Origin: a virus
Reading direction: 5' to 3' (one strand)
Length of the DNA stretch: 51,058 bases
IMG/VR virus record: IMGVR_UViG_3300022592_000007
Span: 1-51,058 of that record
The notes under the pieces: model-generated
Told to the model about the DNA's origin: nothing
Databases searched by the model: none
The model's input: only the letters and a program-made list of their open reading frames with translations
Shown here: in pieces, positions 5,785-45,416 of the stretch
Layout of the letters: each line of letters starts with the position of its first letter
Position numbering within the stretch: the first letter of the stretch is position 1
Translations under genes and position numbers: made by a program

Positions 5785-5973
5785 ATGACCAAATGGAATC
5801 CGATAAGTCGAAGTCCTAAAGAGAATGGGGAGTATCTTGTCTGTTATGCTTCTAAAAAAGACAGGAGTAGGAAGTATGTATCCGTAAGTACATGGGTGGG
5901 GATATGGGAGAGGAATGAATATCCTATGATAGAGATAAGTCATTGGGCAAAGTTGCCTAAAGTGCCGAAATGA
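5785..5973 (+). CDS. DUF551-like small protein
   Basis: A 62-residue protein, MTKWNPISRSPKENGEYLVC at the start and HWAKLPKVPK at the end. The pattern W.PIS..P.ENGEYLV....... ITHW..LP.PP is that of the DUF551 family, common in phages and of unknown function. AAAGGAGAAGGAT sets the start. It is the first gene behind the folded leader and is coupled to the HNH gene by an ATGA overlap (5970-5973). Confidence 0.8.
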   Translation: MTKWNPISRSPKENGEYLVCYASKKDRSRKYVSVSTWVGIWERNEYPMIEISHWAKLPKVPK

Positions 5974-6326
5974 TAAGATACAAAAGATATGATCCATTGG
6001 CGGCAATTATTACTCTCTTGATAATGGACTGGGTATTTAAGCCAAGGATAGATAGGCACGATGAATATCAAGATTACTTGCAGAGCGACCACTGGAAGAG
6101 GGTTAGAAACGTAGTGGGTCAAGATGCTAATTGGCTATGTGCAGTAAAAGGATGTGGTAAGCATGGGAGACACTTGAATGCCCATCACCTACATTATCGG
6201 AGCCTTGGAGAAGAGAGGGAGGGAGATGTGGTATATGTCTGCCCATATCATCATAAACTTATTCACAAAAACCACGCGTTTAATAGACGGGGCGGCGGAG
6301 TAATTCCAGCCTTTAGTTACAGGTAA
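5970..6326 (+). CDS. HNH endonuclease-like protein
   Basis: A 118-residue protein. A hydrophobic N-terminal stretch (residues 9 to 24) is followed by YLQSDHWKRVRN, then a zinc-HNH module: Cys57 and Cys62, AHHLHY at 71 to 76, a Gly/Glu-rich turn (SLGEEREGD), Cys91, and HH/H at 94, 95 and 99. This is the layout of small phage HNH nucleases. Such proteins can act in DNA nicking, packaging (together with terminase) or homing; location upstream of terminase permits a packaging role, but this is inference. Start overlaps the previous stop. Confidence 0.75.
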   Translation: MIRYKRYDPLAAIITLLIMDWVFKPRIDRHDEYQDYLQSDHWKRVRNVVGQDANWLCAVKGCGKHGRHLNAHHLHYRSLGEEREGDVVYVCPYHHKLIHKNHAFNRRGGGVIPAFSYR

Positions 6327-6329
6327 AAT

Positions 6330-6527
6330 GTGCAGACAAACCCCGTTGACAAATACCTACAAGAAAACTGGGATGGCATTACAATTCCAGTATGTATTTG
6401 GGTTAATATACCATCCAAATATCATCGCCTAGCCAAGTTCTTATTCTGGTTTGGCATGGACGCGTTGGCATATCGGGTAATTACAAAAAAGTCTTATCTT
6501 ACTTTTGGGGATGGTAAGCGTGTATAA
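6330..6527 (+). CDS. Hypothetical protein (GTG start)
   Basis: GTG 6330 lies one codon after the HNH stop in the same frame, with only a short AGG as ribosome site. The 65-residue product (starting VQTNPVDKYLQENWDG, first residue read as Met) has one hydrophobic segment, AKFLFWFGMDALAYRV, which could be a membrane or amphipathic helix. Its TAA stop overlaps the -10 box of the ferritin gene. No family recognised. Confidence 0.5.
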   Translation: MQTNPVDKYLQENWDGITIPVCIWVNIPSKYHRLAKFLFWFGMDALAYRVITKKSYLTFGDGKRV

Positions 6528-6528
6528 T
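6523..6528 (+). promoter_or_regulatory. -10 box (GTATAAT) directly upstream of the ferritin gene
   Basis: TATAAT with TG directly before it, overlapping the stop of the previous gene. Transcription from here would begin near 6535, just before GGAGG at 6536-6540 and ATG 6546, giving a leader of about ten bases. No good -35 is seen. It suggests that the ferritin gene can be transcribed on its own. Confidence 0.45.
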
Positions 6529-6545
6529 TGAACTTGGAGGCTACT

Positions 6546-7013
6546 ATGTTTGTCCTTGTTGAACAGATGCTACAGAACGAAGTTACACTGGAACGAACCA
6601 ATTCGGCCGTTTACAGACAGATGGCGGATGAACTTGATAATATGGGCTGGGGCGGGTCTGCCAAGTTCATGCGTAAGTCTAGTGATGATGAATTGACTCA
6701 CGCAGATAAATTCTGTGGAGTCTTGGTTGATCGGAACATTACCCCAATTTACGATACAATTCGGAAGATCGAAATGGTAAATGGAAGGCTGACGGATTAT
6801 TTCTATTCCGCCTACGCCGCCGAACAAAAGACTACCGCCGCCATTGAAGAAATATATAAGACCGCGCACGATGAGGGCGAGTTCCTTGTTACTCAGTTCT
6901 TACAGTTCTTCCTCGAAGAACAGAGAAATTCTGAGCGCGAGGTTTGGGACATCATTCAAATGTTGGAAGCATCGGATGAGTGGCGCTTGATTGACGAAAA
7001 ACTTGGAGAGTAA
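6546..7013 (+). CDS. Ferritin-like iron storage protein
   Basis: A 155-residue four-helix ferritin. An earlier TTG is open, but GGAGG stands at the right distance before ATG 6546. The ferroxidase ligands of bacterial ferritins are in place: Glu16 and Tyr23 (LERTNSAVYRQM), Glu49 and His52 (DDELTH), Glu93 (YAAEQ) and Gln126 (FLEEQ). The helix order and FLQFFLEEQ...E match FtnA, whose length is similar (about 165). Two of the outer C-site Glu of FtnA appear replaced (Asn128, Ser129), so iron turnover may differ. Ferritins oxidise Fe(II) and store it in 24-mers. A phage copy could protect DNA or hold iron during infection (inference). Confidence 0.85.
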   Translation: MFVLVEQMLQNEVTLERTNSAVYRQMADELDNMGWGGSAKFMRKSSDDELTHADKFCGVLVDRNITPIYDTIRKIEMVNGRLTDYFYSAYAAEQKTTAAIEEIYKTAHDEGEFLVTQFLQFFLEEQRNSEREVWDIIQMLEASDEWRLIDEKLGE

Positions 7014-7031
7014 TAGAAAGTGAGGATAAAA

Positions 7032-7328
7032 ATGGGTATTAGTGAATATCTAAAATCTGTTGAATGTGGTTATATGAGCAAAGATAGAGCAAGAAAGGTG
7101 TTTGGGATAGATGAATATTATCAAATTCTATCCCCATCTGGCTCTAATTATGACTATCCCGGTATTTCTGATTTCATGGACTTAAAGGTGTCCGACATTT
7201 CCATATACAATGATTGGGCATCCAGTGCCAACACATATCGCGACCAAAATAAAGTGAAATGTACTTATTGCGGGAGAAAGAACGATTCTGAGGATGAAAC
7301 CTGTGCAAGTTGTGGAGCGATACTATGA
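7032..7328 (+). CDS. Hypothetical protein with C-terminal zinc ribbon
   Basis: Start ATG 7032 is chosen for GAGGATAAA upstream; a GTG four codons earlier overlaps that site. The 98-residue product begins MGISEYLKSVECGYMSKDRA and has a middle part with MDLKVSDISIYNDWASSANT. The end carries a CTYCGR...CASCGAIL double CxxC zinc ribbon. Likely a nucleic-acid- or protein-binding adaptor. It ends in ATGA with the next gene. Confidence 0.7.
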   Translation: MGISEYLKSVECGYMSKDRARKVFGIDEYYQILSPSGSNYDYPGISDFMDLKVSDISIYNDWASSANTYRDQNKVKCTYCGRKNDSEDETCASCGAIL

Positions 7329-7459
7329 AGATTTTGATTAGGGTTATTTCCATTGCCCTCCTGGGTGGAGGGTTTGTAATCATTGGATTGACAGTAAGTT
7401 GGTGGGCGGTATTAGGACTTGCCATGGTTATCCTTGGGGCATCCATAGGAATTCGATGA
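7325..7459 (+). CDS. Micro membrane protein, 44 residues
   Basis: Starts within the ATGA of the zinc-ribbon gene stop and ends in the ATGA that starts the small terminase gene. It begins MKILIRVISIALLGGGFVII and is hydrophobic throughout, with a second segment WAVLGLAMVILGASIGI, so it forms two membrane helices joined by a WW turn. The double stop-start coupling in an otherwise real operon argues that it is genuine. Role unknown. Confidence 0.6.
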   Translation: MKILIRVISIALLGGGFVIIGLTVSWWAVLGLAMVILGASIGIR

Positions 7460-8007
7460 CCGATAGTCGTAAGCATATAACAAGAGCTTCTTCTTTCTCT
7501 CAAGAGATACATCAGGAAGCCTTTGCTATTTGGTATAAGCTGGAAAGACCACCACTCAAACAAATTGTTAAGCTATTGAAAGAACAATCCAAGGACGGAA
7601 GAGCGCCAACTACTACGACTCTCCAGTGGTGGCATAAGGAAGATTCTTGGGACGACCACGCCGATATGTTAGACGCAGAGGCCGAACAAGCCGGGGATAT
7701 GGAAATCATCAAACAACGCCAGGGCATTATTCAGAAGATGGCCACCGTTGGCGCAGACCTCGTAGACATGGGGATGAATTACCTAAAAAAGAACGGCATT
7801 GAGAACTCCGCCGATGCTATTCGGGCAATTGGAAAAGGTGCAGAGTTGCAGGATAAGTTACTTGGTTGGGCAGCTTACTTCGCAGAATTGAGTACCGCAA
7901 CCAACGAGGAGTTGGAAAAGAAACTAAAGCACTTCATGGGTGAAGAACCCATAGAGGCAACGGCCATTAATGCAAGCGAACAAGACGATTCGAACAGATC
8001 TGAGTGA
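7456..8007 (+). CDS. Terminase small subunit (probable)
   Basis: A 183-residue protein; ATG 7456 overlaps the previous stop. It begins MTDSRKHITRASSFSQEIHQ, followed by a helix-turn-helix-like unit (AFAIWYKLERPPLKQIVKLL, then TTTTLQWWHKE), which reads like the DNA-binding N domain of TerS. A helical central part (EIIKQRQGIIQKMATVGADL) suits the ring-forming oligomerisation domain. Direct position before TerL supports the call. TerS recognises the packaging site and feeds DNA to the motor. Confidence 0.75.
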   Translation: MTDSRKHITRASSFSQEIHQEAFAIWYKLERPPLKQIVKLLKEQSKDGRAPTTTTLQWWHKEDSWDDHADMLDAEAEQAGDMEIIKQRQGIIQKMATVGADLVDMGMNYLKKNGIENSADAIRAIGKGAELQDKLLGWAAYFAELSTATNEELEKKLKHFMGEEPIEATAINASEQDDSNRSE

Positions 8008-9544
8008 TAAGGATAAGAGACAGTTACTTGCCCTACTTACAGAGATGAGGGCAAGGAATCTCGATATACCTAAAGTAGACAAAGCCAACATAGCCTGGTC
8101 AGATAAATGGAATATTGATGAGAATGGCTTCTTTCGCAGAAATGGAGCGGGAAAGCCCTATGACCCGGCGGGGGAACAGTTAAGTTTCATAAATGCACCC
8201 GGAGTTTTTGTAGCCATGCAAGGGGGTAGAGGATCTGGAAAAACTTCTGCCGGCGCACAGAAAGCGCTTCGTAAGATTCGTGAAGGTAGAACAGGGATAG
8301 TCGTCAATCCAGACCTGGAGAACTTCAAGACTTCTACCTGGCCAGAACTCCGAAGCTGGATACCCTGGCAGATGGTAATTCCAAAACACAGAGTCAGAAG
8401 GTCAGAGTCTTGGGATGTAACCAGACCATTTTCAATCGTTTTCATAAATGGAGCCGTTCTTTATTGTCGTGGACTTCGTGACCCCGAGTCTGGCCGTGGA
8501 CATAACGTAAACTGGTTATGGTATGACGAAGCCCGTAGAGATAGAACTGGACTGGCCTGGAAGAACGCTATCGCGGGTGTACGCGTTGGGTCCAATACCC
8601 AACGGTTCTTAACCACTACTCCGGCCGGAAGAGACTCTTGGATAGCCGCTTTATTCGACCGGAAAGAGATTCCTCAAGAAGTCTATGACCTCCTGAAAGA
8701 CATCCCCGATATGCAGGGGCGCGAGTTAATCGAGTCTTTTCACGTTTCCCTGGAAGAGAACCGCAAGAACCTTGACCCCATCTTTTACGCTACACTGGTA
8801 TCATCCTTCCCGTCTGGTTATTTGAGACAGCGCGAGATCGAGGGAATCGCAGCCAACGAAGAAGGTTCTCTTGGTGATAGGACATGGTTTACCCACAATC
8901 CAACTACTGGAGTATCGCACATCTTAGAAAAGGCTCCCGAATGGAGAGGGCGGATTCGATATTATGACCTCGCCGCTTCCGAGAAGAAAGTTGGTACTGA
9001 CCCCGACGAAACAATAGGTGGTTTGGTTTCCTATGACGATAAGAAGGAAAACTTTTGCATCGAAGATCAAACCGGAGGACATTGGTTGTGGGATCAAATT
9101 CTTGAAAACATCAGAAATACCGCCATGGTAGATGGACAACAAGTACCCATCTATATCGAGCAGGAACCCGCCTCGGGCGGTAAGAACCAAGTGGCCGCTA
9201 TTGCCAATTTCTTAAAGCCATTTGGGTTTACCGTGAGAGCGCACGACCCCAAGAAGGATGGAGATAGAGTAGAAGCGGCTAACCACTGGTTCGCGGAGGC
9301 GGCGCAAGGACATTGGTGGGTGGTTCGTGGAAAATGGACGGATAATTTTTTTGGCGAATTGGACACCTTCCCCGCTAAGGATACCCATGACGACCGGATA
9401 ACCGCGACCACCGGGGCCCGTTTGTCTATTGCACCTATTCGTAAATGGAGCAGTATTCGGTTTGCTCATTTAGGCCAGAAAAATCCAGAACAAAAAAAAG
9501 AGGAAGAAGCAAAGGTTGGAGCATGGGGGAAATCTAAGGATTAA
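7970..9544 (+). CDS. terL: Terminase large subunit
   Basis: A 524-residue packaging motor. The ATPase half has the P-loop GGRGSGKT (residues 85 to 92), Walker B WLWYDEA (182 to 188) and coupling motif TTTP (215 to 218). The nuclease half has Asp333 (YYDLA), the acidic pair IEQE (396 to 399) and HDDR (473 to 476), the RNase H-like metal site. Length is normal. The first ATG at 7970 overlaps the small subunit gene by 38 bases and lacks a good ribosome site, so it is probably translated by coupling; a later Met at residue 26 is possible. Its stop overlaps the stop of the convergent HNH gene. Confidence 0.95.
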   Translation: MQANKTIRTDLSDKDKRQLLALLTEMRARNLDIPKVDKANIAWSDKWNIDENGFFRRNGAGKPYDPAGEQLSFINAPGVFVAMQGGRGSGKTSAGAQKALRKIREGRTGIVVNPDLENFKTSTWPELRSWIPWQMVIPKHRVRRSESWDVTRPFSIVFINGAVLYCRGLRDPESGRGHNVNWLWYDEARRDRTGLAWKNAIAGVRVGSNTQRFLTTTPAGRDSWIAALFDRKEIPQEVYDLLKDIPDMQGRELIESFHVSLEENRKNLDPIFYATLVSSFPSGYLRQREIEGIAANEEGSLGDRTWFTHNPTTGVSHILEKAPEWRGRIRYYDLAASEKKVGTDPDETIGGLVSYDDKKENFCIEDQTGGHWLWDQILENIRNTAMVDGQQVPIYIEQEPASGGKNQVAAIANFLKPFGFTVRAHDPKKDGDRVEAANHWFAEAAQGHWWVVRGKWTDNFFGELDTFPAKDTHDDRITATTGARLSIAPIRKWSSIRFAHLGQKNPEQKKEEEAKVGAWGKSKD

Positions 9545-10122: not shown

Positions 10123-10182
10123 GATATAAGTGTAACTTATGAATCTATTCACGTCAAGTACGAGTTGAAACGTAAATTAAGA

Positions 10183-10212: not shown

Positions 10213-10998
10213 ATGGGTATTCCCAAAGACGTTCTACGTGAAGATTTATGTTTGGGAGATTGGTCAATTTGTATTGCCTACCGAGGTAGTATCGCCCATG
10301 GAATGTATATTCCCTCTACCGACCCAAATTCCATAGACGATAAAGACGTAATGGGGGTATGCGTCCCCCCGATTGATTATTACTTCGGTTTACACGCTGT
10401 TGGGGGAATGTTTCCAACCAATGGAACTAAAGAAATTAAAAAGGATGAATGGGACATTGTTGTTTATGAGGCCAATAAGTTTATTCATCTTTTATCTGTT
10501 GGTAATCCCAATGCATTAACTTTGCTTTATCTTGACCAGAATTATTATATCAAGAAAGAACCGGCGTTTGACCTACTAATTGAAAATAGAGACGCGTTTG
10601 TTGGAAGGCATGTTTATCGTTCATTTACTGGTTATGCTTATGGACAATTACACAAAATGACTCATGGACAGAAACTCGGTCACATGGGCCAAAAGCGGAT
10701 TGAATTGTTTGGAAAGTATGGATATGATTGCAAAAATGCCGCCCATCTTATTCGGCTACTTCGCATGGGTATTGAATATCTAAAAGATGGTTGTCTTTAT
10801 GTACTACGGGAAGACGCTACACAACTTCTTGAAATAAAGCGCGGCGAATGGACTATGGAGCAAGTGGAAAAAGAATCAGACTGTCTTTTCAAGTTGGCGG
10901 AAGAGGCTTATCTAAACTGCAAACTTCCTAAGGGGCCGGATATTGATAAAATTAATAAATTGGCGGTAGAAGTAATCAGAACATCTTTGAAAATATAA
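10213..10998 (+). CDS. Predicted nucleotidyltransferase, RlaP-like
   Basis: A 261-residue protein of the DNA polymerase beta type nucleotidyltransferase fold. The core has RGSIAHGM (Gly25, Ser26) followed by SIDDKDVMGV with the acidic metal residues at about 42 to 45, then a VVYEANKFIHLL helix and SVGNPNALTLLYL, a pattern of the RlaP/PF10127 family. The C half is helical (MGIEYLKDGCLYVLREDATQ). RlaP relatives are linked with RNA repair; phage members may modify tRNA or proteins (inference). AAAGGATAAAAA sets the start. It stands alone behind its own -10 box. Confidence 0.8.
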   Translation: MGIPKDVLREDLCLGDWSICIAYRGSIAHGMYIPSTDPNSIDDKDVMGVCVPPIDYYFGLHAVGGMFPTNGTKEIKKDEWDIVVYEANKFIHLLSVGNPNALTLLYLDQNYYIKKEPAFDLLIENRDAFVGRHVYRSFTGYAYGQLHKMTHGQKLGHMGQKRIELFGKYGYDCKNAAHLIRLLRMGIEYLKDGCLYVLREDATQLLEIKRGEWTMEQVEKESDCLFKLAEEAYLNCKLPKGPDIDKINKLAVEVIRTSLKI

Positions 10999-11289: not shown

Positions 11290-13317
11290 ATGGCTGCCAA
11301 AACACGAACTAAAGCAAAACAACTTAATCCCACCGATCTTTTGGTACAAACCACCCTTCCATCTCAGCGTTCTGCCCCCGGTGGAAATGTTTTGAATTTC
11401 CTTTATCGCGTTGCCCCCGCGTGGAATTCGCCCAATTGGTGGGAGGCTCAGATATGGCGTAATTTCGTTATGTCTGTCCCCATCGCTACTGTCTGTAGGA
11501 ATACCGCCATCTCTCAACTCACCGCGCTGGATTGGAAGATTGTTGCAAGAGACTCCAATAAGACCGATGAGCTGAAAGCCAAAATAAAATACAACACGCG
11601 ATTAATTGACAATGAGGGGATGTATGACGGAATTGATTTCACGGGTAGACTCGAATGGCTGGGTAAAGACTTGCTCGATCTGCCCTTTGGGATGGCCGCA
11701 GAATTGGGACACGAGAATGATGATCCTAATGGGAAAGTAGTCTGGATACGTTGCCTAGACGCGGGTACTCTAATGCCCTCGCTAAACGCTGATTTTCCTG
11801 TTATTCAGCGCGTTCCCAACATGATTACTGAACCCATTGCGTTTCCAGCATATTCAATAGCACGTCAATATATGAGTCCTCGTTCAGATATTTGGCGTGA
11901 GGGTTGGGGTATGGCTCCCCCCGAACAGATTTACCTAGCCTTTGAATTGATGAAGCGTGGTGATAAGTATTACGCTGAACTACTTTTGAATACCCCTCAG
12001 GTTGGTATCCTCGACCTCGGAGATACTACCAAGGAAACCGCACAGGAGTGGATGAAAGAGGCGCAGGACTTATTTACTGGTACTGACCCGATGAAGATTC
12101 CCGTCCTCTACGAACACACAACCAAGGTGGAGTGGATTCCATTCCAGATGAATCCGAATGAATTGATGTTCGACCGAATCACCGCGCGCTATGCCAACCT
12201 AATCTGTGCTGGGTATGGAATGAGTCCTTCAGACATCGGGATGGGTGGTTCTTCCAACGGCGGGGAAACTCTCTCTGGAACCATCCGGGATGAGCGTAAG
12301 ACCAAGAAGAACATTCTCTCGGTTATGAAAAAGAAGTTCAAATCATTCTACGACCACATTCTTCCCGAAGAACTTGAGTTTACCTGGATCGACTTTGACT
12401 CCGACCAAAACGTTGCACAGGGACGCGCAAGATTGGCAAATGGACAGGCAGACGAAATCCTGATTCGCAATCACGTCTTTACTCCACAGGAAATGCGCGC
12501 ACAGGCCCTTGTGGATGGGCTTGTTACCGTGTCTGTTCCCGAGACTTTAGATGACAAGAGTATCGAATGGCCCCAGTCTGGGAACACTACTCGCCCCGGA
12601 CTTATCGGAGAAAAGGTATCCGCCGATAACGGTGGACGCGGTGAAGTCAGTTCTGTCCAGGCTTCGTTGGCCGATAGTGGAATTATTGACCTAAAAAAAC
12701 AGGCCGACAAATCAGTAAAGCAAGCCTATTCCCCAATCCATGACTTTATCACAACAATAAAGAACATGAAGCCAGAAGAAGTCGAGGCATGGAAAAAACA
12801 CATTGCCGATGCTCTATGGTGGCGCGACCCAGAAGCCCGAATGATTGAGGACGTTGAAAAGAGACGCAGAACTATTCAGGGTTCGCTAAAGCGCAACGGG
12901 CTTGGCGAAGTACGATTCAACTCGGAAGATGCGCCGAAAGTCGAGCAGGCTCTTCGGGATAAGGTCTATCTAAAAATGTCTGAGTCGGACGACGCGTATG
13001 AAAATGGGTACGATGAAATCGAAGCCGAACAGAAAATCCATTCAGTAGATATACCGAATTGCATGGAAAAAGCCTCCACTGAAGCCACCGAGATAGCGCG
13101 TTCCATCATGGCGACCACAATATTCTCGGATTTACTTGATGAACTCACTATTGACCCTACGGTTGAAAAAAGTGATAATAAAGCTACAATTGTTGCTTCT
13201 GTGGTAAATAAGTTTGTTGAAGCCTATCCGCAGTTGATGACCGCCGCAGAAACAGCAGGTCAGCAAATCTTAGAGAAGATACTTGATAAGGAGATTGAAA
13301 ATGTCAAAGATTTATAA
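11290..13317 (+). CDS. Portal protein
   Basis: A 675-residue protein placed after terminase. It shows the phage portal pattern: N-terminal WWEAQIWRNFVMSVPIATVC, a wing region with PEQIYLAFELMKRGDKYYAE, the stem region with DRITARYANLICAGYGMSPS, and GGETLSGTIRDERKTKKNI. Residues 1 to 480 are portal; the last 190 residues are an extra helical domain (GEVSSVQASLADSGIIDLKK, then charged helices) of the kind sometimes fused to portals. Portals form the 12-mer DNA channel at one capsid vertex. The ATG is not preceded by a ribosome site (see the promoter at 11277). Confidence 0.85.
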   Translation: MAAKTRTKAKQLNPTDLLVQTTLPSQRSAPGGNVLNFLYRVAPAWNSPNWWEAQIWRNFVMSVPIATVCRNTAISQLTALDWKIVARDSNKTDELKAKIKYNTRLIDNEGMYDGIDFTGRLEWLGKDLLDLPFGMAAELGHENDDPNGKVVWIRCLDAGTLMPSLNADFPVIQRVPNMITEPIAFPAYSIARQYMSPRSDIWREGWGMAPPEQIYLAFELMKRGDKYYAELLLNTPQVGILDLGDTTKETAQEWMKEAQDLFTGTDPMKIPVLYEHTTKVEWIPFQMNPNELMFDRITARYANLICAGYGMSPSDIGMGGSSNGGETLSGTIRDERKTKKNILSVMKKKFKSFYDHILPEELEFTWIDFDSDQNVAQGRARLANGQADEILIRNHVFTPQEMRAQALVDGLVTVSVPETLDDKSIEWPQSGNTTRPGLIGEKVSADNGGRGEVSSVQASLADSGIIDLKKQADKSVKQAYSPIHDFITTIKNMKPEEVEAWKKHIADALWWRDPEARMIEDVEKRRRTIQGSLKRNGLGEVRFNSEDAPKVEQALRDKVYLKMSESDDAYENGYDEIEAEQKIHSVDIPNCMEKASTEATEIARSIMATTIFSDLLDELTIDPTVEKSDNKATIVASVVNKFVEAYPQLMTAAETAGQQILEKILDKEIENVKDL

Positions 13318-15903: not shown

Positions 15904-17085
15904 ATGCCCGAAACTGGCTTAGATGTAACCACCGGACAACCCATCCCGGTTTCCGATGCAGTTGTACAGCGCGCTACCGATCCCCTCGCGGTGAATGTAG
16001 TCACCCCAGGAGATTTCGCCGCGCAATTCCCCACACCCCTGGATCATACCGAAATTCTGGACATGTGTGAGGATATTTCCCTTTTCCAGAACATCCCCGA
16101 AATCCGCACCTCTCTGAAGCAAGAGAACTGGCGCGAAATGACCACCCTGGCCTTCGTGTCTGGGTCGAACTATATCGCCTTCACGGATGGGGCTTGCCCT
16201 GAAGAGTATTCTCACGATGGCTCCAATCGCACCGTCGATCTGAAGAATATTGGTGTCAAGAAATCCTTGACCATCTCCGACATCCTGCACTCCATCGCTT
16301 CACAAGCGGCTGGATGGGGTATCTCAGCCCTGATGGGTGGATACTCCGCTGTCGAAGGAATGCCCGGTGGTTCCGATGCCACGACCTTCACCCGCGCTGA
16401 AATCGCCAGCCTGAAAGTCAAGGAAATCCGTCTGGGAATGGCCCTCGTGATGAACGCCTGGGACAGACTTCTGGCCGAAGGTAACGCCACCGCTCGTCCG
16501 TTGGAATTCGACGGAATGGAAGCTCTGGTAGTCCCCGCCAATGGCGCGCATACCAACACCGGCTCAAGCGTTTCCGGTATGACGGTATCAGGTTCCTACT
16601 CCGCCATCGGGTTCGACCGCTTCCTCTCTGAAACCTGTGCCAAACCGACTCACGTATTCGGTCATCCTCAAGCTATTCAAGAGATGTTGTCCGCTTACTT
16701 CCAGTTGGGCTTCCAAGGTTCTCAGGTTGTATTCCAACAGAGTGGTGACCGGATGATTCCTGGCTTCAATTTCGCCGGATTCGTCAATACTTCCATCGGT
16801 CGCCTGACCGTCGTGTCTGATGTGAACTTCGCCCGAACCGACATGGGCAACGGTGCTTTCGCCTCTACAGTGTACGCTCTCCGTATGCAGCATAACGGCC
16901 TCCCGCTGGTCTATCGAAGCACACAGATTCCTCTCGCGCTCGTGGACCTGGTCCCAATGTGCACGTCTGTGGCATTTGAAATATGGGCTAAGACAGCTTT
17001 AGTTATCAAGCAGTATTGCGCTCAAAGTGCCTATCGTTCAGTGTTCTCTGGTCGTACTTACTCCGGCTGCACGGCTCTCGGCTAA
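15904..17085 (+). CDS. Major capsid protein
   Basis: 393 residues, the expected size for an HK97-fold capsid subunit. It follows the scaffold gene, has a strong ribosome site (AAGGAGATTTTGCC) and is followed by a strong terminator, all typical of the most expressed virion gene. It starts MPETGLDVTTGQPIPVSDAV. A short N arm is followed by a spine-helix-like region (VKKSLTISDILHSIA), a substrate-like A-domain core (FDRFLSETCAKPTHVFGHPQ) and a C-terminal strand set (GLPLVYRSTQIPLALVDLVP). Assignment rests on context and pattern, not a diagnostic motif. Confidence 0.8.
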   Translation: MPETGLDVTTGQPIPVSDAVVQRATDPLAVNVVTPGDFAAQFPTPLDHTEILDMCEDISLFQNIPEIRTSLKQENWREMTTLAFVSGSNYIAFTDGACPEEYSHDGSNRTVDLKNIGVKKSLTISDILHSIASQAAGWGISALMGGYSAVEGMPGGSDATTFTRAEIASLKVKEIRLGMALVMNAWDRLLAEGNATARPLEFDGMEALVVPANGAHTNTGSSVSGMTVSGSYSAIGFDRFLSETCAKPTHVFGHPQAIQEMLSAYFQLGFQGSQVVFQQSGDRMIPGFNFAGFVNTSIGRLTVVSDVNFARTDMGNGAFASTVYALRMQHNGLPLVYRSTQIPLALVDLVPMCTSVAFEIWAKTALVIKQYCAQSAYRSVFSGRTYSGCTALG

Positions 17086-28212: not shown

Positions 28213-29220
28213 TTACACCACGATAACTTTATTTTTTAGCCCAGCCTTTCGGATACTATCAATCACCAGTTCTCTTTGCATCTGGGCGATAACTACAATG
28301 GGGGCATCGCTTTCACAATGGTCGTAGACCGGAACTCCTCCGATGGTCTGGTCTTTGAAGGCCGGATCAATGTCCACATAATGAACCACATCCAGGGGAA
28401 CTTGTTTTAGGAGTAAAAGGCAAATATCTCCCACCCCCCATACAACCACGGGTCCGGAAATCTTCTTCATCTTTTCGATTTTCGCAGCAATATTACTGTC
28501 ACACCATTCCTTTGACCGATAGTAAGTTCCTACCTCATCCGGCTTTTCATAGAGGATACGAAAGGCCGGGTAGTCGTGACTCGTGACTACATAGTTGTGA
28601 ATGGTCGTTGGGTAATAATCGTATTTTGCAAGCAGGGCATTCAGGGTACGCGTCGAGAAATGATTAATATGCTTCTGTGAGTAATCCATGATGGGCAGGG
28701 TGTTTATTCTGACCATCTGAATTGTATCGGGGATGTCTATGATGAACTTTCCGTTTAGGTGTGAGGTCAGTTTATCCATGACAGACTTCATATCGTAGAC
28801 ATGTTCGAGGACGTGAGAGGCGATCAATAGGTCGATGCCGACAGGAAGTTCATCGCCAACATTCACGGTCGTCACATCTTCATAGCCGAACTTGCGGAGC
28901 TGTCTTTCGACATATCCCTCGGTTCCTCCGAAGTCAACAATCCGGGCATCTTTCCTTTCCTCGGTGTCCATAACGAAGTCAATCAGACCATCTAGTCTGT
29001 CATGGGTTTCTTTACCCGATAGAGTAAGTTCCGAGTCGTATCGGTAATGATAATAGTTGTCGTAATCAGATTGGTTCTTGTCGTTGTAGTAGTAAATCAT
29101 CCCACATTCGCACAGGCAGATGTCATTCTTTATTGGCAGTTCCCATCCATCGGGAACAACGAATTCCATACTCCACGCGACGATTCGTTTATCACTTCCA
29201 CAGGTCGGGCAATTACGCAT
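28213..29220 (-). CDS. NovU/EryBIII-type sugar C-methyltransferase
   Basis: 335 residues with the three parts of deoxysugar C-methyltransferases: N-terminal zinc site (CPTCGSDKR, then ICLCECGMIY), SAM-binding core (RIVDFGGTEGYVERQLRKFG as motif I and LLIASHVLEHVYDM later) and a C-terminal domain that starts at WGVGDICLLLLKQV and reads as Methyltransf_14. In family members the zinc domain and a His/Glu pair (here QKHINHFSTRTLN) bind a 4-keto nucleotide sugar and methylate carbon 3 or a neighbouring carbon. Normal length is about 400, so this is a shorter version. It overlaps the epimerase gene by eight bases. Confidence 0.85.
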   Translation of the reverse strand: MRNCPTCGSDKRIVAWSMEFVVPDGWELPIKNDICLCECGMIYYYNDKNQSDYDNYYHYRYDSELTLSGKETHDRLDGLIDFVMDTEERKDARIVDFGGTEGYVERQLRKFGYEDVTTVNVGDELPVGIDLLIASHVLEHVYDMKSVMDKLTSHLNGKFIIDIPDTIQMVRINTLPIMDYSQKHINHFSTRTLNALLAKYDYYPTTIHNYVVTSHDYPAFRILYEKPDEVGTYYRSKEWCDSNIAAKIEKMKKISGPVVVWGVGDICLLLLKQVPLDVVHYVDIDPAFKDQTIGGVPVYDHCESDAPIVVIAQMQRELVIDSIRKAGLKNKVIVV

Positions 29221-29929
29221 CTTTGGCCATCCTTTTTATAGAATCTTTCAGGGGTATCGTTTCTTTGCAACCCAACTCCAATGCGCGTTGTACATTTTCT
29301 GGGACATAACATCTCGGGGTTGGCGTTTCCTCGTGTTCAACGAATTCTATTTTTGAAGGAATGATTTTAGACACCATTCTCGCGACTTCTCCCATGGAAT
29401 AAGGTAGCATTGAACCAACATCATAAACCCCTTCGCCATCCAATAACATCTTCCAGAACCATGTCGCGACTTCTTCTCCATAAAGGTAACTTCTAACCGT
29501 CAATCCATCTCCCCACACTTCGATAGGCTTTCCCGCCAATGCGCTCTGGATGAAAACGGAAAGAGCCTTGTTCTTTTGGAATGGTAAACCTGAGGTAGCA
29601 AAGAGACGGGCGATAACCACATCCACATTACTATGAACACATTCCGCTTCCCACAGTCTCTTATGATAAGCGTATTCTCCTCGTCCTTCATAGACCGCCC
29701 CTGAAGAAGCAAAGAGAACCTTGCATTTATTCTTCTGGGCATATTTCAGGACGCGCGAGGGAGATATTGGAGCGAGGTGGACAATTATGTCGAAGTTTAG
29801 ATGTTCCCAATTCTCTTGATAAGCAATACTCCCCATTCCAAAGACATTGACATTATCTGGCGCGGTTTTGTTCATCCAGGTACCTACATACCCCGTCGCC
29901 CCTGACATTAATACATTGATATGTTTCAT
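29213..29929 (-). CDS. NAD-dependent sugar epimerase/dehydratase
   Basis: 238 residues of the extended short-chain dehydrogenase type. NAD-binding GATGYVG at residues 10 to 16, LAPISPSRV in place of the usual HLAA segment, active-site Ser (FASSGAVYEGR) and the Tyr-Lys pair in YAYHKRLWE. Shorter than most sugar epimerases (300 to 340), because part of the substrate-binding half is reduced. It probably reduces or epimerises a 4-keto sugar after the methyltransferase. Start overlaps the stop of the micro membrane gene (ATGA). Confidence 0.85.
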   Translation of the reverse strand: MKHINVLMSGATGYVGTWMNKTAPDNVNVFGMGSIAYQENWEHLNFDIIVHLAPISPSRVLKYAQKNKCKVLFASSGAVYEGRGEYAYHKRLWEAECVHSNVDVVIARLFATSGLPFQKNKALSVFIQSALAGKPIEVWGDGLTVRSYLYGEEVATWFWKMLLDGEGVYDVGSMLPYSMGEVARMVSKIIPSKIEFVEHEETPTPRCYVPENVQRALELGCKETIPLKDSIKRMAKDA

Positions 29930-30018
29930 TTTTCATCCTTAGGCAATATTGAATCAAGTATATAGAGAATGACAAGTATTGAAGCCACCCCAATTAACAT
30001 TAAGAGGAATGTACTCAC
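29926..30018 (-). CDS. Micro membrane peptide, 30 residues (GTG start)
   Basis: GTG 30018 begins VSTFLLMLIGVASILVILYI (first residue Met) and the frame ends DSILPKDEK with a TGA that overlaps the epimerase ATG. AAGGATTTACG stands before it. One membrane helix with a charged tail. Size and coupling resemble the 31-residue membrane peptide at 19792, and it too follows a small gene within the island. Confidence 0.45.
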   Translation of the reverse strand: MSTFLLMLIGVASILVILYILDSILPKDEK

Positions 30019-30027
30019 CGTAAATCC

Positions 30028-30216
30028 TTATCCAATATTCGTTCTCCAAAATTGCCACCACGCCGGTTTCAGAACTTGTTGTTGGTATTGTTGACTTCTT
30101 TCATATCTTTCTTTGATTTCCCGTTCTGTCTTTGGTATACACTTTGTTGTGATGTTATCTACATACTCAGCACAACCATAACAGAAACCAGTTTCATCTA
30201 ATTTGTGTTTTCTCAT
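30028..30216 (-). CDS. Small hypothetical protein
   Basis: 62 residues: MRKHKLDETGFCYGCAEYVD with a CxxC, a third Cys at TKCIPKTE, a charged helix (EREIKERYERSQQYQQQ) and an end WWQFWRTNIG. It could be a zinc-binding helical peptide. AAAGGATGATGAG precedes the start and carries the stop of the upstream epimerase gene. No named family. Confidence 0.6.
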   Translation of the reverse strand: MRKHKLDETGFCYGCAEYVDNITTKCIPKTEREIKERYERSQQYQQQVLKPAWWQFWRTNIG

Positions 30217-30220
30217 CTCA

Positions 30221-31189
30221 TCATCCTTTCATTGTCCATCTGAGGTCTTTATCTATTTTACCACTTTCCATCAGGTATTTTAGTCTGGCAAGTCTGACAT
30301 AGCCAGAGAAGTCTTTCATCAGCAGATAGTCAAACTTGAATTTCATTTCTTCAATTCCATCCCATATACTCCAAGAAGGAGTAAAGCCTAAAACCTTTTT
30401 CGCCTTCAAGAAGTCCACTTGATAACTACGCGGGTCAATGTCGCTCATCTCTGAATTAGTTACGATACAATTCGGAAACGACTCTGCCACAGCCCCGGCA
30501 ATTGCCTTCACCCGATAGTTCCTTGTTCCAATATTGAATATCTGGTTATGAACCTTCTCTCTTGGCGCTTCGAGGGCAAGTAAGAACGCTTGACATAAAT
30601 CTTGGACATGAACCAGCGGCCTCCATTGTGTTCCATCTCCAACGATATTGACCTTTCCTTGTGAATAAGCAGAGCAGGTCATGGTATTCAGAACGAGGTC
30701 GGAGCGGAAGTTGGGCGACCAACCGAAGGCGGTGGCATTACGGAGAATGACCGGACTGAAATCATCGCTCCTAATGTGTAGTAAATCCGCTTCAGCTTTC
30801 GCCTTAGAAGTGGCATAGGCTGTCAGAGGATGAAGTTCTGATTGCTCGTCAGCAATCCCATCTGAGCAACCATAAACGCTACACGATGAAGAAAAAAGAA
30901 AACGCCTTACATCTTTTTCCCATGCCAAATATGCAAGTCTTGCGGTTGCCTCATGGTTTATTTTAGCAGTAAGAGTCGGATTAAGTTCTCCCATCGGGTC
31001 ATTCGACAGACCGGCAAGATGAACAACTGCATCACAACCTCCGAAAATAACATCCCGCAACTCTCCCCTTAATCTATTATCTGAAAAATAACATTGGTCT
31101 ACCCCCATAACTTCATGCCCCGCCTTTTCCAACATGGGCTTCATTACACTTCCGATATAACCATCATGTCCGGTCATAAGTATCTTCAT
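30221..31189 (-). CDS. NAD-dependent sugar epimerase/dehydratase
   Basis: 322 residues, full length for the extended SDR family. NAD-binding TGHDGYIG at residues 6 to 13, VVHLAGLSNDP, active-site Ser and Ser-Cys stretch (SSSCSVYG), and the YATSK Tyr-Lys pair. The substrate part (NATAFGWSPNFRSDLVLNTM, GTQWRPLVHVQDLC) matches NDP-sugar epimerases such as those acting on 4-keto-6-deoxy hexoses. Coupled by ATGA to the TPP enzyme C part. Likely an early or middle step in making the island's sugar. Confidence 0.9.
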   Translation of the reverse strand: MKILMTGHDGYIGSVMKPMLEKAGHEVMGVDQCYFSDNRLRGELRDVIFGGCDAVVHLAGLSNDPMGELNPTLTAKINHEATARLAYLAWEKDVRRFLFSSSCSVYGCSDGIADEQSELHPLTAYATSKAKAEADLLHIRSDDFSPVILRNATAFGWSPNFRSDLVLNTMTCSAYSQGKVNIVGDGTQWRPLVHVQDLCQAFLLALEAPREKVHNQIFNIGTRNYRVKAIAGAVAESFPNCIVTNSEMSDIDPRSYQVDFLKAKKVLGFTPSWSIWDGIEEMKFKFDYLLMKDFSGYVRLARLKYLMESGKIDKDLRWTMKG

Positions 31190-32277
31190 TTTTCGTCCTC
31201 ATAGGGTGCCATCAGGTCTAAACGTCCTTTACCATCAAATAGAACACGTGGATAAATCGGCTCTTCTTGGGGGGCGTTAACAATATATACAAACGGCCCA
31301 TTAGTGTTGGACAACCAGTCAAACCAAGTAAGGTCTTGGTCATATAAATTTACCGTACTAATGTCAAACGCCCTAACCACATTCTGAATGTTTGGGAACG
31401 TCCTACCCTCTCCGGTTCTCCCAAACGCCCTCATCTCCGAATTCCGAGTTGATGCGTAACCTCCGTTTTCGATGATAAAAATAACGATGTTCAAATTCAA
31501 ACGGCGCACCACTTCCAATTCTTGCATACACTGGCAGAACGACCCATCTCCCTCGATAAGAATAACCCTCTTTTTACTCGCCAAAGCCACTCCGATGGCC
31601 ACCGGAATTCCCCCTCCCATTGAGCCAAGGCCACAGGAGGATAAGATTACCCTCTGTCCCTTCTTCTGCTTGAAGAAGGCTGGAAATATTGTTCCCCCCT
31701 CATTCCCCGCGGTATCGAACACAATCACGTCCTCGGGAGATAAAACTTCGCTCAAAGTATTACATAGTTGAAAAGTAGTCGAATCCATTTCCGGCCCATA
31801 CTTTGCTTTCCAATCCTGGCATTTCTTTAACCAGTCTGGATATAACCCGAATTCATGTTTGCTCAGTTCTTGGATGAACGCAAGCGAGTCTTGGTGGATA
31901 AACAGATCCAAATTCGGTATCTTCAATGCCTCACTCAAATCAACATCTACCAATATCTTTTTTGCCCTCGGGGACAACTTATCATATTTGAAAGCAATTG
32001 TTCCGGGGTCTAATCGCGCTCCAATGGATAGGAGCAAGTCACAGCCCTGTAAAGCGAAGTTAGCCCCCCGTGTCGCCACAATCCCCGGCCTGCCGATAAA
32101 GAGAGGATGTTCCCATTCAACTAAGTCAATCGCATTCCATGTCGTCAAGATTGGAATTTGCCATTTCTCAGCGAAAGAAATTATCTCGGAAGAGGCTTTC
32201 CTTGCGCCGGCCCCTAATAAAATAATAGGTCGTTGAGACCCCAACCACATATCAAGCAGTTCTGGTACTCCGCTCAT
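31186..32277 (-). CDS. TPP enzyme, central and C-terminal part (separate gene)
   Basis: 363 residues covering the central Rossmann-like domain (RPIILLGAGARKASSE, then GCDLLLSIGARLDPGTIAFK) and the TPP-binding domain, with GDGSF at residues 243 to 247 and IENGGYASTR, the start and end of the thiamin pyrophosphate motif. This is the part of acetolactate-synthase-like enzymes that normally follows the Glu domain in one chain; here the Glu domain is a separate gene directly upstream (ATGA overlap, 32274-32277). Together the two chains equal the usual 550 residues. TPP enzymes in sugar clusters build branched or dicarbon side chains. Confidence 0.85.
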   Translation of the reverse strand: MSGVPELLDMWLGSQRPIILLGAGARKASSEIISFAEKWQIPILTTWNAIDLVEWEHPLFIGRPGIVATRGANFALQGCDLLLSIGARLDPGTIAFKYDKLSPRAKKILVDVDLSEALKIPNLDLFIHQDSLAFIQELSKHEFGLYPDWLKKCQDWKAKYGPEMDSTTFQLCNTLSEVLSPEDVIVFDTAGNEGGTIFPAFFKQKKGQRVILSSCGLGSMGGGIPVAIGVALASKKRVILIEGDGSFCQCMQELEVVRRLNLNIVIFIIENGGYASTRNSEMRAFGRTGEGRTFPNIQNVVRAFDISTVNLYDQDLTWFDWLSNTNGPFVYIVNAPQEEPIYPRVLFDGKGRLDLMAPYEDEK

Positions 32278-32798
32278 ATCTCTGCACCCTGAACGTCAAG
32301 TGGAATAATTACCATCGCCGGCCCTCTCCTATCCTCCAAGGAAAACTTTACCGCATTATTGAATATCCACTTTACCACATTCGCCCCCATAGCACATTCC
32401 ACATATTTTGTAATTGGACGCGCCACTCTTGTCATATCCACGTCTTGCGCGCTACCTTCACGGAGATTGTACTTGTTCTTTACTTCTAATTCTGGTGTGT
32501 TTATCTCCCCGCAGATAGATAGGATGGGAATACTGTCACACCAGGCCGAAGCAATTCCAGTAAGTAAATTAGTAGAACCCGGACCGGCGGTAGTACACGT
32601 CACCCCTAATTGTCCCGTAATTTGTGAATCTCCTATAGCTGCCCACACCGCGCTTGCTTCGTCTAAACACCAGATTACTTGTAATTCTGAATGAGAGAGT
32701 TTATCCACGACCTCCTGAACAAAACCGCCCGGCAAACAGTATACGCGTTCGATTCCAAGTTCGATCAATCTACTCACCAACCATTCCGAAACAAGCAT
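32274..32798 (-). CDS. TPP enzyme, N-terminal PYR-domain part (separate gene)
   Basis: 174 residues: MLVSEWLVSRLIELGIERVY, CLPGG, then the essential TPP-activating Glu47 in CLDEASAVWAAIG and VTCTTAGPGSTNLLTGIASA, all in normal order for the PYR domain of acetolactate-synthase-like enzymes. It ends with PLDVQGAEI, the usual domain boundary, then TGA inside the ATG of the next gene. The cut lies precisely between domains, so this looks like a functional two-gene enzyme and not a frameshift. GGAGAATAGCG sets the start. Confidence 0.85.
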   Translation of the reverse strand: MLVSEWLVSRLIELGIERVYCLPGGFVQEVVDKLSHSELQVIWCLDEASAVWAAIGDSQITGQLGVTCTTAGPGSTNLLTGIASAWCDSIPILSICGEINTPELEVKNKYNLREGSAQDVDMTRVARPITKYVECAMGANVVKWIFNNAVKFSLEDRRGPAMVIIPLDVQGAEI

Positions 32799-45394: not shown

Positions 45395-45416
45395 AAGTAC
45401 GAGTTGTATCGTAAAT
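45395..45416 (+). repeat. 22-base sequence shared with 10156-10177
   Basis: AAGTACGAGTTGTATCG plus TAAAT, matching 20 of 22 bases of the sequence upstream of the nucleotidyltransferase gene. It overlaps the stop-to-start interval and includes the first bases of the fibre start codon. Related shorter sequences occur near 10999 and 39529. Confidence 0.5.

Follow-up and report, generated by a model that had tools for sequence, protein, structure and literature searches.

A ferritin gene was identified in a stretch of viral DNA of 51,058 nucleotides (positions 1 to 51,058 of the IMG/VR record IMGVR_UViG_3300022592_000007), referred to here as the window. As the earlier note on this DNA had described, the gene lies between an HNH endonuclease-like open reading frame (ORF) and the terminase genes (Table 1). 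Four other phages (L003 to L006) carry close relatives of it and are treated together with the window's own phage as the five close phages. A 49-aa ORF lies between the zinc-ribbon-like ORF and the putative small terminase gene (TerS). Between the large terminase (TerL) and portal genes there is a gene for an RlaP-like nucleotidyltransferase (10213–10998; PF10127, E 9.4e-18), with a possible role in RNA repair. No tRNA genes were found in the window.

Table 1. Features at and around the ferritin gene (window coordinates).
Feature	Coordinates	Strand	Basis and remarks
HNH endonuclease-like ORF	5970–6326	+	PHROG HNH families, best E 9.4e-07; without Pfam match
65-aa ORF between HNH and ferritin	6330–6527	+	No family match (Pfam, PHROG)
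TATAAT, possible -10 element	6523–6528	+	Overlaps stop codon of the 65-aa ORF
GGAGG, Shine-Dalgarno-like	6536–6540	+	Direct reading; before the ferritin ATG in 5/5 close phages
Ferritin gene (P0001)	6546–7013	+	ATG at 6546, stop at 7011–7013; 155 aa; Pfam PF00210
Ser129 codon (FtnA Glu130 position, site B/C ligand)	6930–6932	+	Alignment
Short fifth helix at helix E position, residues 146–154	6981–7007	+	DSSP on models; FtnA overlay 2–160
102-aa ORF, weak zinc-ribbon match	7020–7328	+	Pfam, slightly below curated cut-offs
Putative terminase small subunit (TerS)	7456–8007	+	Position, size, TerL overlap; no family match (longer version 7399–8004)
Terminase large subunit (TerL)	7970–9544	+	PF17289, PF03237; phrog_979 E 6.2e-30
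Portal-like protein	11290–13317	+	phrog_11117 E 4.3e-08; without Pfam match

Mechanical ORF calling gave a longer version of the ferritin gene, of 161 aa and starting at TTG 6528; the ATG was taken as the start because GGAGG precedes it. The gene had been credited in the earlier note with its own -10 box and a 10-base leader. The TATAAT is present, but an independent promoter is only partly supported: a promoter scan found no -35 partner for it, a consensus sigma-70 promoter at the gene was rejected on that scan, and the hexamer is kept in three of the five close phages (the window, L003 and L006) and missing in L004 and L005. A leader of 10 bases would follow from the spacing. GTATAAT occurs across the window at chance level (seven times against 6.4 expected). 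Of the 75 ORFs picked mechanically, 5 have TATAAT itself within 45 nt upstream, where 0.76 would be expected (Poisson P 0.001), and TATAAT ranks first in this upstream enrichment among 20 hexamers of the same composition, the runner-up (TTATAA) overlapping it. A 15-mer from the ferritin leader did not emerge as a repeated promoter-like element (two matches against 0.85 expected). A phage promoter or an extended -10 promoter at the gene is plausible, and transcriptional read-through from upstream is likely. In L003 and L004 the ferritin stop codon and the putative TerS start share 1 nt (TAATG), which makes operon membership no less likely than an independent unit; in phage G013 the stop abuts a mechanically picked GTG start of the putative TerS gene.

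A dispersed 22-base element was also observed, close to AAGTACGAGTTGTATCGTAAAT and containing an internal inverted repeat (TACGA and TCGTA, 6 bases apart), at window positions 1773, 10156, 17899, 26488, 39526, 45395 and others. With up to six mismatches it occurs at 13 places, against 0–1 in each of 10 single-base shuffles, for a query that was itself derived from the window. The copy at 10156 stands just upstream of a TATAAT and the gene at 10213, that at 45395 at the start of the gene at 45415, and one at 6747 inside the ferritin gene. It is possibly a phage operator or promoter.

Family, fold and ferroxidase centre

The protein matches Pfam PF00210 (Ferritin) at 73.9 bits against a cut-off of 24.5 (E 1.6e-20) and misses the NCBIfam FtnA equivalog PRK10304 (51.5 against 178 bits). 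A phmmer search of the PDB returned ferritins, with variants of Thermotoga maritima ferritin at the top (9.7e-15) and the Escherichia coli ferritin 1eum at 2.6e-11. AlphaFold2 models were built from five phage rows (pLDDT 80.6) and from 58 rows (pLDDT 97.0, pTM 0.90), with the same five helices in both (DSSP; residues 3–32, 36–62, 82–109, 113–142 and 146–154), that is, the four-helix bundle with a fifth helix E of the non-haem ferritins. When the second model was overlaid on known structures, T. maritima ferritin (1z4a, Z 25.1) and E. coli FtnA (1eum, Z 24.7) each fitted at 0.9 Å over all 155 residues, helix E included. The fold is thus common to the phage protein, T. maritima ferritin (1z4a, 1vlg) and FtnA (1eum, 4reu), at 25–29% sequence identity and with a shorter D–E turn and a short tail in the phage protein. 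All 50 structural matches listed by Foldseek were ferritins (Z 23.2–25.1), but these are its own top matches and the absence of other families from them proves little.

The residues which the earlier note had named as primary ferroxidase ligands (E16, E49, H52, E93, Q126), together with Y23, are all in place within the one subunit. They correspond to E17, E50, H53, E94, Q127 and Y24 of FtnA (numbering checked on the FtnA sequence), where the set is the same, and in our alignment they are invariant in all 14 viral and all 66 sampled cellular ferritins. The outer site C was correctly described as partly replaced: E125 is kept (E126 in FtnA), while D48 stands for E49, N128 for E129 and S129 for E130. 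The bacterial site C (E49, E126, E129, E130) is thus incomplete in the phage protein. Since a site C is no general requirement for a ferritin, its partial loss marks a variant and leaves membership of the family untouched. Animal H-chain ferritin presumably resembles the phage protein here, sharing a Gln at position 126 and lacking an acidic residue at that of Glu130; the best sequence matches of the phage protein are, however, bacterial.

Membership of another diiron family (rubrerythrin, Dps, bacterioferritin or MiaE-like) was weighed against this and is scarcely credible. A weak Pfam Rubrerythrin match (23.3 bits against a cut-off of 22.8) points towards it, but rubrerythrins have two ExxH motifs in the bundle, whereas the phage protein has a single one (E49–H52) and EQ at residues 125–126 in its second half. 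Bacterioferritins have a haem-ligand Met after the Glu of ExxH and Glu/His instead of Gln127/Glu130; at these diagnostic positions the phage protein has L50 (T or Q in its kin), Q126, where bacterioferritin has Glu, and S129. The Dps ferroxidase site lies between subunits and helix E is lacking in that family, in contrast to the intra-subunit ligand set and helix E of the predicted phage subunit. No Pfam match to MiaE was found at E 0.001, and the 50 top Foldseek matches, all ferritins, also stand against another family. Rubrerythrin, bacterioferritin and Dps were each rejected on these grounds. The earlier note's reading of a true ferritin and not a Dps agrees with family score, fold and ligands alike, and its identity as a ferritin, in descent as in fold, is virtually certain. 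Its subunits would form a 24-subunit cage, oxidise Fe2+ and hold a mineral core.

Among predicted viral structures in BFVD, the best match was A0A8D9C9X5 from an uncultured marine phage, named "Putative bacterial non-heme ferritin" (TM 0.94 on the query), which is only 21% identical to the phage ferritin. Five other BFVD proteins of uncultured Caudovirales phages (A0A6J7WPK9, A0A6J7XDU5, A0A6J7WIS1, A0A6J5N5R9 and A0A6J7WVS4; 333–763 aa), named prohead protease, Dps or Ferritin/DPS, gave weak structural matches (E 0.04–0.3) and may combine a head gene and a ferritin-like domain in one fusion.

At the residue corresponding to FtnA Glu130 most of the viral proteins part from the cellular ones. 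The 14 viral rows have Ser in ten, Gly in one and Glu in three (L048, L049 and L139), against Glu in 66/66 and Ser in 0/66 cellular rows, which were sampled from the best 80 of at least 197 relatives. These 66 rows are 63 of the 80 fetched loci and three plasmid-collection ferritins, 17 loci, some of them near copies, having been dropped by hand; two fetch patterns were used, one of which constrained position 128 and neither of which constrained 129. Since all loci were chosen by likeness to the phage protein, 66/66 should not be read as a count over bacteria at large.

In the diatom ferritin PmFTN of P. multiseries, the accessible text reports that Glu130 binds iron at sites B and C and that its replacement (E130A) raised mineralization about 10-fold, with a slightly slower, near-normal first oxidation (PMC4653698). 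Cooperative iron binding was lost, although some iron still bound at sites B and C (PMC4653698), and the change let about 15% of the centres regenerate (PMC4653698; review PMC4771812). With Ser at this position, the result for E130A leads us to predict a fast iron sink, in which iron should pass quickly into the cage. The effect is carried over by analogy from a distant ferritin, in which Ala, a residue that differs from Ser, was tried.

Relatives, phylogeny and selection

Scans of IMG/VR returned five contigs with close relatives, one of which (L002) is the window's own phage (100% over 15,010 bases compared); the ferritins of the other four are 87, 76, 72 and 68% identical to the window's. 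Alignments of terminases and of a wider set of ferritins added ten further ferritin contigs and one with a copied ferritin, giving 15 distinct phages in total, to which a final scan for further phage ferritins added none. Outside this set such genes are scarce. A tblastn search with the phage protein matched 1 of 50,697 phage records, an unverified scaffold at 22.6% identity, and an FtnA query matched six unannotated records, one of them (MT839617) an unverified 4.2-kb scaffold without annotation. FtnA-type ferritin is therefore rare in phages at the sensitivity of tblastn, as the earlier note had held. The TerL proteins of cultured phages are 22–31% identical to the window's among the matches listed (15 of 531 matching records).

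In a tree of 80 rows, 12 of the 14 viral ferritins formed one clade (support 92/80) with a nine-row core that includes the window protein (96/83, starred), neighbouring ten actinobacterial ferritins with moderate support (83/89). L139 and L048 were placed elsewhere, and the free tree thus implies more than one acquisition; constraining 13 of the 14 viral ferritins together (all except L048) was not rejected (p-AU 0.252). L048, L049 and G012 are long branches of unsure placement, and the bootstrap was incompletely settled (0.988). G013 (a 10-N gap in the gene), L140 (ferritin identical to that of L139) and L002 were left out. The window protein thus falls within a virus-only clade of ferritins. 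Neither this phylogeny nor the structural overlay, the two computational checks named in the earlier note, refuted a ferritin. No account of such a clade was found in the accessible literature on phage or viral ferritin or iron, a body of text that mostly excludes subscription journals and preprints.

Cellular relatives are distant. The closest match over most of the length, among the best 80 of at least 197 relatives in the genome scan, is 35% identical, and a 90-residue cellular segment (L109) from the same set reaches 39%. Of 296 genomes from the phylum of the best match, nine matched at 1e-12, the top one again at 35% over most of its length, and no donor was found in the genome scan or among these genomes. 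An initial scan of genome contigs that used patterns built on the ferritins of the close phages had likewise shown no cellular relative among 96 stretches.

Purifying selection on the gene is strong. Among the five close phages dN/dS is 0.05–0.13 in five of the ten pairs, synonymous sites being saturated in the other five. The most constrained part is the end of helix D with helix E: the last 28 residues show 0.03–0.09 non-synonymous differences per site against 0.12–0.30 in residues 1–127, with synonymous differences of 0.50–1.01 against 0.58–0.87, and all five phages agree at 26 of the last 27 positions. The tail is 29 residues long after Gln126, against 32–48 in 45 cellular rows. A back-translated pattern of the tail matched only the same five ferritin contigs, and a mobile peptide shared with other proteins was rejected. 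Helix E lines the fourfold axis in ferritin cages; this helix can explain the conserved tail, and a partner-binding role, though possible, is unnecessary as an explanation.

These data bear on whether the gene is a recently captured host gene with no function in the phage. Ferritin is common in cells (14/14 control genomes match PF00210, a family that also covers Dps and bacterioferritin), which speaks for capture. A best cellular identity of 35%, the strong purifying selection, the virus-only clade and the use of the same slot in five diverged phages nevertheless make it very improbable, and recent host capture was rejected.

The ferritin gene and the packaging and head genes

The order in the five close phages is an HNH-like ORF, 0–1 ORFs (65–183 aa), ferritin, 0–2 small ORFs, putative TerS and TerL, followed in some by extra ORFs and then by the portal gene. 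The HNH-like ORF is present upstream in four of the five, the contig of L003 beginning inside it, and L003 and L006 have no counterpart of the 65-aa ORF between it and ferritin. G013 and the four other close phages each have a homologue of the putative TerS between ferritin and TerL, and in all six phages in which ferritin precedes putative TerS it is co-directional with the packaging genes.

More distant phages place the gene differently. The TerL proteins of G013 and G012 are 44 and 48% identical to the window's. In G012 ferritin stands 1.5 kb behind a homologue of the window gene at 15904–17085, which has no family match and which we take to be a capsid gene; "behind the capsid gene" thus refers to this homology and to position. 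A 307-aa ORF, prohibitin/band-7-like by eye, adjoins the G012 ferritin (L041 4817–5740, minus strand). The gene comes after TerL, portal and a head-morphogenesis gene in L046, is flanked by portal and major head protein in L047, and directly precedes portal, protease and head protein in L048. In L134 and L138 it closes the TerL–portal block, with sugar or other metabolic genes beyond, and the arrangement of L137, with TerL placed by family search, looks the same. There are two exceptions: in L049 a gene of a "virion structural protein" family precedes it by 1.4 kb and a DNA polymerase gene comes after it, and in the L139/L140 phage it is found among apparent replication genes (judged by eye), about 4 kb from a small terminase. 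Homologues of the sugar and aminosugar genes of the window (28213–32798) were observed shortly behind ferritin in L134, L137 and L138 (about 6.4–12 kb), three phages with different terminases.

In all, 13 of 15 distinct phages and seven of nine lineages have the gene within or next to the packaging/head block (five of seven lineages when only lineages with a contig of at least 20 kb are counted). We attach no probability to these counts, because full independence of the lineages cannot be assumed and head genes are likely over-represented on short contigs; the way in which short viral contigs come to be recognised has probably inflated the nearness. The gene is also accessory in the TerL group. 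Seven of 14 records with related TerL carry it (five close and two distant ferritins), several of the rest being fragments, and none was found in the relatives G008 (68.7 kb) and G010 (30.5 kb). In G008 a 177-aa ORF (L022 4905–5438), with an NPPY motif by eye and without a Pfam match, occupies the slot between HNH and putative TerS, and the slot looks like a variable cargo site.

One explanation for a gene that keeps to this block would be a link to the virion, in which a cage or subunit in or on the particle guards the DNA, delivers iron or aids entry. The counts above and the constraint on the last 28 residues are in line with it, as are weak structural matches in BFVD (E 0.009–0.3; 290–763 aa) to proteins named prohead protease or Dps. 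The accessible text on the Vi01-like phage Sajous1 also describes a hypothetical protein, gp217, given a ferritin model by Phyre2, as detected by mass spectrometry (PMC10892097). The same text, however, reports that TonB- and FeoB-deficient hosts were infected about like the wild type, and its authors state that low peptide counts cannot separate virion proteins from cell debris (PMC10892097). An accessory gene with no match in the 68.7-kb relative, whose place within the block differs between lineages, also fits such a role poorly, and sampling accounts for part of its nearness to head genes, since these are the hallmark genes by which short contigs in a virus collection are likely recognised. 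We regard a virion-linked role as unlikely. Decidedly unlikely is a more specific form, in which a virus-specific branch with mineralization sped by the loss of Glu130 acts in head assembly, the cages at or in the particle protecting it or loading it with iron. Such cages would, by analogy, be the phage-side counterpart of the ferritin-in-a-shell logic of encapsulins, where a ferritin-like cargo ties a member of the superfamily to an HK97-type shell that is thought to be phage-derived (PMC8346489, as far as accessible). Classical encapsulin cargo is loaded by a C-terminal peptide (PMC8346489).

Proposed role of the phage ferritin

Members of the ferritin superfamily have been reported in viruses before. 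In the accessible portions of the sources, gut phages of the Gratiaviridae carry Dps and manganese catalase (PMC8008677) and Lactobacillus phages a Dps-like protein (PMC6669764), proteins which are Dps or catalase and not ferritin, and a ferritin is reported for giant viruses (PMC7136201). Closer in kind is the bacterioferritin of a predicted Bathyarchaeia virus, likewise an iron-oxidising superfamily gene of an uncultivated virus under purifying selection, but reported as derived from Thermoproteota (PMC10904782), in contrast to the non-haem ferritin in a virus-only clade described here. This clade, the Ser at the Glu130 position and the recurrence of the gene at the packaging/head block across phages also go beyond what the earlier note had proposed.

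Taking the evidence together, the explanation we favour, with a probability of roughly 55% for the whole of it, is that the phage makes a fast iron store which keeps free iron scarce, limits Fenton damage and withholds iron from the host. The last two effects had been suggested in the earlier note, next to a supply of iron for virions. A tailed phage would thus carry a working non-haem ferritin as an accessory gene, expressed along with the DNA-packaging genes or shortly before them. Its subunits would assemble into a cage, and Fe2+ would be taken up, oxidised at the two-iron ferroxidase centre and kept as mineral. With Ser in place of the Fe3+-holding Glu130 of FtnA, iron should pass quickly into the core, making the protein a fast sink and not a slow buffer. 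Free iron would be held low during replication and packaging of the phage DNA, reducing Fenton damage, and iron would be withdrawn from a dying host whose metabolism is being dismantled while phage DNA is exposed. The sequence, predicted fold, ligands, purifying selection, virus-only clade and gene position on which this explanation is built are established; the cage, activity, timing and benefit of the ferritin we infer from them. Fenton protection would matter less in an anaerobic host, and the ferritin could matter only for the cell's iron supply.

A virion-linked role and such an iron supply are the main rivals to the fast iron sink. As a supply, the ferritin would act as a host-metabolism gene that buffers iron for the iron-using enzymes of the infected cell, much as was proposed for the ferritin of giant viruses (PMC7136201, accessible part), and the bacterioferritin gene of the Bathyarchaeia virus has also been discussed as a metabolic gene (PMC10904782, accessible part). 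Loss of the Glu130 ligand argues the other way, since in PmFTN it points to fast storage and not buffering (PMC4653698). We consider iron supply unlikely.

The fast iron sink can be approached through its active site, which is complete and carries one virus-typical change: placing Glu at position 129 of the recombinant protein should slow mineralization. Iron is often discussed in phage infection, and to our knowledge few phage genes act directly on it. If the ferritin is active, phages would have adapted an iron store to the phase around packaging, and if it is present in virions, phage heads and ferritin would be joined in one system.
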